Assembly: GCA_012729725.1 (NCBI GenBank)
Contig: JAAYCO010000205.1
Location: forward strand, 1 to 39,468
Origin: Planctomycetota bacterium
GTDB taxonomy: Bacteria; Planctomycetota; Phycisphaerae; SM23-33
DNA: 39,468 nucleotides
Direction of reading: 5' to 3'
The notes beneath the pieces are model-generated. The model made no database searches. It saw only the letters and a program-made list of their open reading frames with translations, and was not told the DNA's origin. This document shows positions 13,367-31,082 of this stretch, piece by piece. Each line of letters starts with the position of its first letter. Positions within the stretch are counted from its first letter, which is position 1. The translations under genes were made by a program, and so were the position numbers.

Positions 13367-13909
13367 CTATCTGCGCTTGCCCGTGCCGCTGCCCGTTGGT
13401 GGAGGAGCAGGAGGAGGGGTTACAACAGCCCCGCCTGAATTGCTGGAACTGTCCAGCGCTCCCTGTTTTGAATTGGGATGAACCGAGCCGTCGGTCAGAC
13501 TCACATACCATCCGGTTGAACCGTCTCTTGGGGCTGATAGCGCCTCGCCGAACTTGATGCTCTTCGCCACGCTGTCCGAGCAGAACGGATTCGCCGGCCA
13601 GTCGTCAACATAAGGCCCAAGCTTGCCCTGCGGGTTAATCTTTCCGCTCGGGTCGGTCTTGCCTTTAAGGCGGTTGGCGTAGTTGGAGGTGTCAAGGGCG
13701 CCGGCCTCGCTGTACTCCGGCCCTTTGCCAAGGTGGTGAGCCCTGTAGATCTCAATCTGCGACCTCAGCGACTGCAAGTCGCTGAGCAGCGCCGATTCTT
13801 TCGCGTCGTTTGATGCCGTCATGTACTTGGGAACGACCATCATGGCGAGGATGGACATCGCCATGACCACGATCAGCAGTTCGACGGTAGTAAATGCGGT
13901 CCTGGACAT
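13367..13909 (-). CDS. Type II secretion/type IV pilus pseudopilin-like protein
   Basis: The product starts MSRTAFTTVELLIVV: a short leader, a predicted prepilin peptidase cut before F6, E at mature position 5 (TVE), and a hydrophobic helix through MMVVPKYM. Residue -1 is alanine rather than the usual glycine. The following helix (KESALLSDLQSLRSQIEIYRAHH) and the WYVSLTDGSV end match the GspG-type major pseudopilin fold. The C-terminal 40 residues are rich in proline, glycine and serine (TPPPAPPPTGSG) and are probably disordered. An in-frame start ten codons earlier is possible; neither start has a clear ribosome binding site. No secretion ATPase or secretin gene is nearby, which is common for scattered pseudopilins in planctomycetes. 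Confidence 0.82.
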   Translation of the reverse strand: MSRTAFTTVELLIVVMAMSILAMMVVPKYMTASNDAKESALLSDLQSLRSQIEIYRAHHLGKGPEYSEAGALDTSNYANRLKGKTDPSGKINPQGKLGPYVDDWPANPFCSDSVAKSIKFGEALSAPRDGSTGWYVSLTDGSVHPNSKQGALDSSSNSGGAVVTPPPAPPPTGSGTGKRR

Positions 13910-13993
13910 AGTAATCAATGTGGAGGGATAACCCGCCATTATTGATTTCGGTCAAGGATGCCTGAGGCTTGACTACAAAAATGCCGCTTTTGG

Positions 13994-28221: not shown

Positions 28222-28725
28222 ATGGACGTTAAACTGGTGATGTTCAAGACAAACGGCCAGCGAAAGGAATTCCCTGTCACAAATCCCCGAACGGTGATTG
28301 GCAGGGGGGAGGACTGCGACCTGCGAATCCCGCTGGTAAGCGTATCCCGGCATCATTGCCACATAGACTGCAGCGCCGAATCGTTCAGAATCAAGGATCT
28401 TGGTTCTTCCAACGGCACGTACGTCAACAACACCAGGATTACGGAAGTCTCGATCAAGGCGGGCGACCGCCTGGCTGTCGGGCCGGTTGTTCTTACGCTT
28501 CAGGTGGACGGCAAGCCCGAGCAAATACACCCCGCGCCCGCGGCCGCCAAGAGCGACCATGCGTCCGAGGAACCGGATATCGATTTCGAATCTGAGATTC
28601 CCGCCCGGCCAAAGGCAAGCAAGGCCAAAGCCAAACCCCAACCTGTCATCGAAGGCGATATGGACGCGATTGCCGCGCTTGAATCGCTGGCGTTGGATAA
28701 AGATGACGAAGACGCCAAGTCCTGA
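28222..28725 (+). CDS. FHA-domain protein
   Basis: The 167-residue protein begins with a forkhead-associated domain (about 1-95), which binds phosphothreonine peptides. All the classical residues are present: G27/R28 (VIGRG), S42-R43-H44 (VSRHH) and N64-G65-T66 (GSSNGTYVN). The tail (100-167) alternates acidic and lysine/alanine-rich stretches and looks disordered. It is divergent from hemW. No Ser/Thr kinase gene is present here, so its partner must lie elsewhere. Confidence 0.92.
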   Translation: MDVKLVMFKTNGQRKEFPVTNPRTVIGRGEDCDLRIPLVSVSRHHCHIDCSAESFRIKDLGSSNGTYVNNTRITEVSIKAGDRLAVGPVVLTLQVDGKPEQIHPAPAAAKSDHASEEPDIDFESEIPARPKASKAKAKPQPVIEGDMDAIAALESLALDKDDEDAKS

Positions 28726-28772: not shown

Positions 28773-28804
28773 CAAAAGCCTGTGCGCATTATGCGACGCA
28801 GGCT
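28773..28804 (-). terminator. Intrinsic terminator of the 42-aa basic protein gene
   Basis: The segment 28777-28804 folds into a long hairpin with outer arms AGCCTGTG and CGCAGGCT (8 bp including one G-T), an inner stem CGC/GCG, and one unpaired A on one side. On the minus strand it is followed at once by TTTT (28776-28773). It starts 14 nt after the stop codon at 28819. Confidence 0.55.
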
Positions 28805-28818
28805 GTGGATGATTTCTA

Positions 28819-28947
28819 TCAGCTATTTGCTTTGGCGGCCCGTGCAGCTTCCTTGCGAGCACGCTCTTTTCGCTTCCGCGGCGCGTTCCTCTCGCGAGAT
28901 GCCTTCTGATCCGCCATCCGCACGACCCAACGTTCTTTCCGACGCAT
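28819..28947 (-). CDS. Small, highly basic protein, 42 aa, unknown function
   Basis: The frame starts MRRKERWVVRMADQ and ends RKEAARAAKANS. Nearly half of its residues are K, R or H, and it contains no cysteine. The ATG has a GGGAG site at 8 nt spacing. A -10/-35 pair lies upstream (29001-29029) and a hairpin plus T-run lies just downstream, so all parts of a small gene are present. The composition suggests RNA or ribosome binding, but I see no match to a known ribosomal protein family. Alternatively the transcript could be a small RNA with an incidental frame. Confidence 0.6.
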   Translation of the reverse strand: MRRKERWVVRMADQKASRERNAPRKRKERARKEAARAAKANS

Positions 28948-29000
28948 TTTGCTGACTCCCGAGTAATCAGGTTATCTTAATGCTCAACAACAAGCGAGGC

Positions 29001-29029
29001 ATTGTAACCCCCTCAGCCTCAAGTTGCAA
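29001..29029 (-). promoter_or_regulatory. Candidate promoter of the 42-aa basic protein gene
   Basis: On the minus strand, TTGCAA (29029-29024) and TACAAT (29006-29001, five of six) are 17 bp apart. The start near 28994 gives a leader of about 47 nt with the GGGAG site. It lies 110 bp from the divergent hisS promoter. Confidence 0.45.
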
Positions 29030-29139: not shown

Positions 29140-29169
29140 TTGGCGTAACAAGCCGGCGTGCTCTATAAT
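29140..29169 (+). promoter_or_regulatory. Candidate promoter of hisS
   Basis: TTGGCG (29140-29145) and a perfect TATAAT (29164-29169) are separated by 18 bp. The start near 29176 leaves a leader of about 25 nt containing GGAAGG (29186-29191). A TCCGCC/GGCGGA dyad (29169-29174 with 29183-29188) overlaps the start region and ribosome binding site, but most of its left arm would be upstream of the transcript. Confidence 0.55.
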
Positions 29170-29199: not shown

Positions 29200-30510
29200 A
29201 TGAGTTTCAAGGCTGTCAAGGGCACGCGGGACTTCTACCCTGAGATCATGCGCGTGCGGAATTACATATTCGACGCATGGCGGCGGGTGTCGCTGCGAAA
29301 CGGGTTCGAGGAATTCGATTCGCCGATCTTCGAGTATCTCGAATTGTTCACCGCCAAGAGCGGCCAGGAGATTGCGTCGCAGTTGTTCAACTTCACCGAC
29401 CGCGGCGGAAGGTCGCTGGCTATCAGGCCCGAGATAACCCCGTCGCTGGCGAGGATGGTCAACGCGAAAATCAACTCTCTGGCCCGCCCGATCAAGTGGT
29501 TCTCAATGCCCCGGCTGTGCAGGGCAGAGAACCCCCAGAAGGGCCGGCTGAGGGAGTTCTTCCAGTGGAACGTGGACATTATCGGCGAAACCTCGGAACT
29601 GGCCGACGCCGAGTGCGTCTTTGTGTGCATTGACGCACTGCGTGAACTGGGGCTTTCGCCAGGCGACGTCGCGCTGCGATACAGCAGCAGGGCGTTGCTT
29701 TCGGCGGTGCTCAAGGCGTTGAACACAGCGGAGGATCGCATTCCGGCAGTGACGGCCGCCCTGGACAAGCGCAACAAGGTTCCGCCCGAGGCGTTTGACG
29801 CGATGCTCAAAGAGGCAGCGGGCGACGAGCGCATTGTCGCCGGCGTGGCGAAGTTCGCGGCAATGGAAGAGGGCTGCCTTGAGGCGTCGAAGATATGCCA
29901 GGAGCTGAATATTGGCCAGACGCCCGAAATCGCGGCTGCGTGCCAGTCGCTTGCGTCGTTCCGGGCGGCGCTGGACAGGTTCGGCATTGGCCAATGGTGC
30001 AGGTACGATGCCGGCGTGGTCCGCGGCCTGGCGTACTACACGGGCATCGTCTACGAGGTATTCGACGCGGGCCAGTCGCTGCGCGCCGTCGCCGGCGGGG
30101 GCAGGTACGACAACCTGCTTGAAGTTCTCGGCGGGCCAAAGGTAACCGCAACGGGATTCGGCATGGGCGACGTGGTGCTGGGCATTCTGCTTGAGGAAAA
30201 GGGCAAGTTGCCGCCGCTGCAGGCTCAGGTTGACTGCTTCGTGATCGACGCCGAGGAATCGGCCTTTGATGCGGTGCTTGGGACGGTGTCTCGGCTTAGG
30301 CAGGGCGGCGTCAGCGCGGAATACAGCTACAAGCGGCAGCACATCGGCAAGCAGCTCAAGGAAGCGAACCGTCGCGGCGCCCGCAAGGCGTTGATCGTCA
30401 AGTCCGCCCAGGAGGCGGGTTTGAAGGATCTTGTCACCGGCGACCAGGCCGACATGAGCATGGATGAAGCGGTTGCGGATTTGCTACGGGCATTTGGCGT
30501 CGCCGGCTGA
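29200..30510 (+). CDS. hisS: Histidine--tRNA ligase
   Basis: HisRS attaches histidine to its tRNA. The 436-residue product starts at the ATG after GGAAGG and has the class II aminoacyl-tRNA synthetase motifs. The N terminus is KAVKGTRDFYPE, motif 2 lies around RLCRAENPQKGRLREFFQWNVDIIGE, and the histidine-specific motif is VVRGLAYYTGIVYEVFD. Motif 3 follows in GFGMGDVVL, and a C-terminal anticodon-binding domain spans about 345-436. An in-frame start 14 codons upstream is less likely. It is convergent, with a 2-bp gap, with the methyltransferase gene. Confidence 0.96.
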   Translation: MSFKAVKGTRDFYPEIMRVRNYIFDAWRRVSLRNGFEEFDSPIFEYLELFTAKSGQEIASQLFNFTDRGGRSLAIRPEITPSLARMVNAKINSLARPIKWFSMPRLCRAENPQKGRLREFFQWNVDIIGETSELADAECVFVCIDALRELGLSPGDVALRYSSRALLSAVLKALNTAEDRIPAVTAALDKRNKVPPEAFDAMLKEAAGDERIVAGVAKFAAMEEGCLEASKICQELNIGQTPEIAAACQSLASFRAALDRFGIGQWCRYDAGVVRGLAYYTGIVYEVFDAGQSLRAVAGGGRYDNLLEVLGGPKVTATGFGMGDVVLGILLEEKGKLPPLQAQVDCFVIDAEESAFDAVLGTVSRLRQGGVSAEYSYKRQHIGKQLKEANRRGARKALIVKSAQEAGLKDLVTGDQADMSMDEAVADLLRAFGVAG

Positions 30511-30512
30511 GA

Positions 30513-31082
30513 TTAACTTCTCTTGCGCAACAGCAGCAGGAACTCGGCGTTGCCGCCCTTGCCGATGAGGGGCGATTCGGCAACGGCCTGCAAATCATGA
30601 TGCTCGGCGAGTTTTTCGCAGACGGCCAGGACGGTTGCGGTTGTTTCCGGCCGGCCCAGGGCCTCGTGCGGCTTGCGAGAGCGAAGCTTCGAAGCTTCAT
30701 AGTGCGGCTTGAGCAAAGAGATGATCCTTCCGCCGGGCTTGAGCCACGTCATTGCCGCGGGGACAACCAGTTCCTGCGGGGTCCATGCCACGTCGATAGT
30801 AACAAGGTCAACGTGTTGGGGCGGTGGGGCGTGCAGGGCGTTGGTGCGTTCCATAACCACCACGCGGGGATCTTTGCGAAGCTTCCACGCCAGCTCGCCG
30901 TAGCCGGTGTCAACGGCAAACACCTTGACGGCGCCGCGTTGCAGAAGGCAGTCTGTGAATCCGCCGACATTGCAGCCGAAGTCGGCGCATACAAAATCGC
31001 GGACATCCAACTCGAATGCGTCGAGTGCCCGCGATAGTTTCAAACCGGCCCTGCTGACAAAGCCGGAAGATTCGCTTGTCAT
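30513..31082 (-). CDS. TlyA-like FtsJ/RrmJ-type rRNA methyltransferase lacking the S4 domain
   Basis: The 189-residue protein matches the methyltransferase half of TlyA, a 2'-O-methyltransferase of 16S and 23S rRNA in mycobacteria. FVSRAGLKLSRAL is followed by the SAM-binding loop DFGCNVGGFTDCLLQRGA (34-51), AVDTGYGELAWKLR, DPRVVVMERTNA, TIDVAW (D97) and LLKPHYEA. The SAM loop has NV where TlyA has ST. TlyA is normally about 270 residues with an N-terminal S4 RNA-binding domain, which is absent; no frame upstream supplies it. It follows rpsT by 15 bp, so it is probably expressed with a ribosomal protein. Confidence 0.85.
   Translation of the reverse strand: MTSESSGFVSRAGLKLSRALDAFELDVRDFVCADFGCNVGGFTDCLLQRGAVKVFAVDTGYGELAWKLRKDPRVVVMERTNALHAPPPQHVDLVTIDVAWTPQELVVPAAMTWLKPGGRIISLLKPHYEASKLRSRKPHEALGRPETTATVLAVCEKLAEHHDLQAVAESPLIGKGGNAEFLLLLRKRS

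Follow-up and report, generated by a model that had tools for sequence, protein, structure and literature searches.

The 42-codon frame on the minus strand of the window (the whole stretch of 39,468 nucleotides that was analysed) is a real gene under purifying selection, which occurs in single copy and possesses a conserved promoter and ribosome-binding site. We regard it as an even prospect that this self-standing gene encodes a small basic protein acting as an RNA-binding helix, whose partner would most likely be ribosomal RNA in the role of a ribosomal protein or assembly factor. The protein family itself is not described in the libraries searched (Pfam, NCBIfam, PHROG and PDB).

Read along the minus strand, the gene is laid out in the order TTGCAA, TACAAT, GGGAG, ATG, 42 codons, TGA, hairpin and TTTT. 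The promoter (29001..29029) consists of TTGCAA (29029-29024) and TACAAT (29006-29001) with a 17-nt spacer, the ribosome-binding site GGGAG (28956..28960) is separated by 8 nt from the ATG at 28947, and the 42-aa basic protein MRRKERWVVRMADQKASRERNAPRKRKERARKEAARAAKANS is encoded at 28819..28947, a range that counts the TGA stop codon (28819). Following the upstream stop, this ATG is the single in-frame start of any kind (ATG, GTG or TTG). The hairpin (28804-28777) and four T (28777-28774) form a possible weak terminator (28774..28804, minus strand). Both neighbours lie on the plus strand and outside the unit: a gene for an FHA-domain protein (28222..28725; PF00498, 2e-20) is convergent with the small gene, and hisS, encoding histidyl-tRNA synthetase (29200..30510; PF13393, 1.1e-47), is divergent from it. 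The initial annotation had described the promoter pair, the GGGAG site and a K/R-rich frame of 42 codons on the minus strand of this FHA-hisS interval, all of which are present as described, and conservation in relatives also bears out its reading as a true small gene served by a promoter and a ribosome-binding site of its own. No Rfam match to a structured RNA was found in the small-gene region.

Frames of this size are frequent by chance in the GC-rich sequence of the window, and the 42-aa frame alone is therefore no evidence for a gene. A translated search of the 42 residues against 60 related genomes returned same-family matches with E values of 4e-5 to 2e-4 as well as weaker ones, and profile searches for homologues reached E values down to 5e-20. 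In each of fourteen same-family relatives from the first search, inspection of the DNA showed a frame of similar size whose start and stop were kept at the same places; four first-search loci (L011, L016, L018 and L019) were left out of the homologue count, and a further one, L014, is the place later recovered whole as the long form L041. A profile of the first-search relatives identified homologues in 21 of 35 same-family genomes (own genome included) with one copy each, while a second profile, run across the class, identified them in 83 of 397 genomes. A scan of genome contigs with a six-sequence profile yielded a single named record, JAAAOJ010000015.1, from a same-family Planctomycetota MAG; a wider profile contained no stretch of sufficient conservation for such a scan. 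The window protein shares 43–60% identity with the short f1 (same-family) members of alignment A1 (alignments A1/A2), and the profile match to its own, unnamed family, with the pattern MGxRRDRLxxR...TRxxNxxRKxKERxR, spans the whole 42-aa frame.

Sequence changes among the nine closest pairs were mostly synonymous, with pN/pS values of 0.07–0.33, as expected of coding constraint. These included L004/L007 (0.07), L036/L043 (0.15), L036/L037 (0.19), L044/L082 (0.23), L079/L080 (0.33) and L009/L013 (0.31, from just four changes). Values for the window copy against its six closest f1 homologues were 0.34–0.47 with synonymous sites saturated, and its Arg codons showed no obvious bias. The comparison with relatives that the initial annotation had proposed (a conserved frame, start and stop with low Ka/Ks) thus gave a positive answer. 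Among 40 loci no neighbours were conserved across families, local synteny being found solely within f10, g11 and g25, and the small gene consequently looks like a one-gene unit; there was no ribosomal operon around it.

The stand-alone promoter and ribosome-binding site that characterize the family are both found in the window copy. Its promoter scored 9/12 in the promoter scan, which recovered four sites in 521 bases where approximately 0.2 were expected by chance, and one of the four contains TATAAT and could be the promoter of hisS. That site, TTGGCG-18-TATAAT (10/12; 29140..29169, plus strand), lies upstream of hisS and is divergent from the promoter of the small gene, the two genes having a common divergent intergenic region of 0.25 kb. 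At a similar upstream place in same-family members (f1), TTG-N16/17-TANNNT was found at 7/12 or better in 18 of 21 cases and at 9/12 or better in 9 of 21, against 0.26 expected from shuffles. The corresponding count was 12 of 15 against 0.82 expected in long-form relatives, and 0 of 9 in short-form families outside f1. The ribosome-binding site in nearly all short-form relatives is GAAAGGA or a close variant, mostly 6–8 nt before the ATG. With respect to the hairpin and T-run that had been reported at the end of the gene, the hairpin is real, whereas the T-run amounts to just four T, and neither terminator scan called an intrinsic terminator there. The hairpin alone folds at -14.6 kcal/mol (z -2.6, for a hand-picked segment) and with its flanks at -15.1 kcal/mol (z -1.9). 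The terminator of the small gene is weak in the window genome and good in several relatives, as clear intrinsic terminators occur at L017, L077, L080 and L089.

The window protein, at 42 aa, contains 40% K+R and has a pI of 11.9, in comparison to 33–52% K+R and a pI of 11.4–12.0 in the other short forms, and all 45 members checked were basic (pI 9.9–12.0). An AlphaFold2 model (two sequences) consists of a single helix over residues 3–41 with a pLDDT of 92.5. Column conservation was most strongly periodic at 100 degrees per residue, the value of an alpha-helix, both in the short forms (permutation p 0.0056) and in the N-terminal part of the long forms (permutation p 0.0003), indicating that the conserved positions tend to one helix face. 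These positions are R4, R11, Q15, T18, R19, N22, K26, R30 and R32 in a numbering that includes Gly2, a residue missing from the window copy. The protein is accordingly small, basic and helical, as a lineage-specific ribosomal protein should be.

The family exists in two length forms. The short form, of 39–59 aa, occurs in families f1, f17 and f21. The long form measures about 80 aa and was found within the class in f7, f10 and f15 and also in f35, elsewhere in the phylum outside the class, where homologues of about 80 aa were found by a phylum search with the long form (long-form loci L039, L040, L041, L044, L075, L081, L082, L085-L088, L090-L093 and L095-L113). In f7, f10 and f15 the N-terminal 40 residues resemble the short form and precede a further stretch of about 37 with the pattern PYTPxVMSWLSxKLxKxASxITxxDIxxL, in which the Trp is invariant among class members. 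Profiles of the two forms align over columns 1–40 (hhalign probability 98.3%, E 2e-14). The long C-terminal segment had no Pfam or PDB match, and eS24, glucose dehydrogenase and other chains considered for it gave no significant match. Since the long form occurs within the class as well as beyond it, the simpler history would be that f1, f17 and f21 have lost the C-terminal segment, and window-type proteins would then be the version without it.

Distribution of the gene is patchy. Good-quality genomes of the same family possessed it in 13 of 19 cases and lacked it in 6, and it was absent from all four genomes of genus g9 (G008, G028, G032 and G034, three of them good-quality) although bS21 was present, which indicates that the gene can be lost. 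A relaxed search of apparent non-carriers produced weak matches, and each of those inspected proved either out of frame or non-homologous. Presence throughout the lineage, which would mark a lineage-specific ribosomal protein, was therefore not found. A genuine bS21 gene was identified in the own genome and in 52 of the 60 genomes searched. The patchy presence of the small gene, set against near-universal bS21 in the same genomes, argues that the small protein is not a core ribosomal protein; since an entire genus and 6 of the 19 good-quality genomes do without it, its role may be an accessory one in the ribosome or in ribosome assembly, or else DNA binding. Replacement of bS21 by the small protein was rejected, bS21 having a gene of its own in the own genome and in those 52.

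No family member had a meaningful sequence match in Pfam, NCBIfam, PHROGs or PDB chains, and in particular the Pfam, NCBIfam and PDB searches linked them to no ribosomal family, no ribosomal chain in the PDB being matched significantly. Literature searches on planctomycete small or ribosomal proteins returned nothing on this family, and they turned up no planctomycete ribosome structure. Unannotated small basic helical ribosomal proteins limited to some bacterial lineages are nevertheless a known kind (PMC5876184, PMC10618245). The actinobacterial ribosomal protein bL37, of 24 aa, was described together with the position of bS22 in Mycobacterium (PMC5876184), and Borrelia has an unannotated bS22 with 61% K/R in addition to bL38 (PMC10618245). 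Like the small protein, bL37 is very short, helical and confined to a single bacterial group, and it went unannotated until seen in a structure (PMC5876184), but the small protein is a putative ribosome binder that has no PDB sequence match and measures 39–59 aa, or about 80 aa in the long form. Members of the bS22/AURKAIP1-COX24/mS38 group similarly are short, very basic helices with lineage-dependent presence (PMC10618245); the small protein differs in having another sequence pattern and no Pfam or PDB match. It resembles bS21 (Ribosomal_S21, PF01165) in being small and basic, but does not match the PF01165 profile. A weak likeness (RxKNxxRxARERxxKA) to the bL20 N-terminus, as in plant mitochondrial bL20m, was not significant (E 2.8) and is probably due to composition.

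A single alpha-helix is the predicted fold of the product, and the conserved Arg/Lys/Gln/Thr/Asn face of this helix may dock on structured RNA; RNA binding is the easiest reading of so short and basic a helix that has one conserved face and is expressed from a promoter of its own. The leading candidate partner is ribosomal RNA, since lineage-limited small helical ribosomal proteins are known in bacteria (bL37, bS22 and bL38), and by analogy to bL37 and bS22 the most likely role would be that of a ribosomal protein or assembly factor peculiar to its lineage. Weighing against a ribosomal role are the patchy distribution, a locus outside any ribosomal operon and without conserved neighbours, Arg codons of no obvious bias in the window copy and the lack of a significant match among ribosomal chains in the PDB. 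The lineage of the window has no counterpart of the C-terminal long-form segment, and there the helix would appear to be sufficient by itself. We propose only tentatively the fuller account in which a previously undescribed Planctomycetota ribosomal protein or ribosome-assembly factor, ancestrally of about 80 aa, shrank to an RNA-binding helix of 42 aa in some families and disappeared from others. Should the product reside in the ribosome, it would be a further ribosomal protein restricted to one lineage, and its history would illustrate how such a protein can shorten step by step; the ribosomes and small proteome of this phylum seem to have received little attention. Whatever its role, the 42-codon frame, of a size that is readily overlooked, is a member of a family present in two or more deep groups of the phylum, and it offers a concrete target of one gene, one promoter and one predicted helix.

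Other explanations of the gene were weighed against this reading. A small DNA-binding, nucleoid-associated peptide, in which the basic helix coats or bends DNA and has no specific RNA, would suit a stand-alone gene without conserved neighbours and a strongly basic composition rich in Ala, Lys and Arg, which also occurs in histone-like tails. Such tails are of low complexity, unlike the nine conserved positions (R4 to R32) of the family that are kept with a helical period, and we consider this explanation unlikely. Somewhat less probable again is that the helix partners a protein, as a chaperone-like or regulatory small protein whose charge suits an acidic protein surface. Its single helix with one conserved face and the hydrophobic segment with invariant Trp that the long form adds would agree with such a partner, but a net charge of +10 to +20 over the 39–59 residues of the short forms is more usual of nucleic-acid binders.

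Two further explanations were considered. The position of a short frame adjoining a tRNA synthetase gene could be interpreted as that of a leader peptide or regulatory frame controlling a downstream gene, yet hisS lies divergently on the other strand, the next downstream gene is on the opposite strand as well, the 40 loci share no conserved neighbours and amino acids are conserved through the whole frame, so that strand and synteny refute this interpretation and leave it very little probability. The slightest probability of all attaches to a chance open frame with a chance promoter; the abundance of such frames in GC-rich sequence and the weak terminator would allow for it, and conservation refutes it, given homologues in dozens of genomes with matching start, stop and regulatory sites, low pN/pS and helical periodicity of conservation. 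The reading as an RNA-binding helix, with ribosomal RNA as its candidate partner, is the one that we prefer.

Two other frames of the window were observed on the minus strand. The N-terminus of a 190-aa frame at 13367..13939 is type IV prepilin-like (TTVELLIVVMAMSILAMM), and this frame had no Pfam match at 1e-3. The second, at 30513..31082, encodes an FtsJ-type methyltransferase of 189 aa (PF01728, 2e-28) that is TlyA-like, although its frame opens directly with the methyltransferase domain and encodes no S4 RNA-binding domain.
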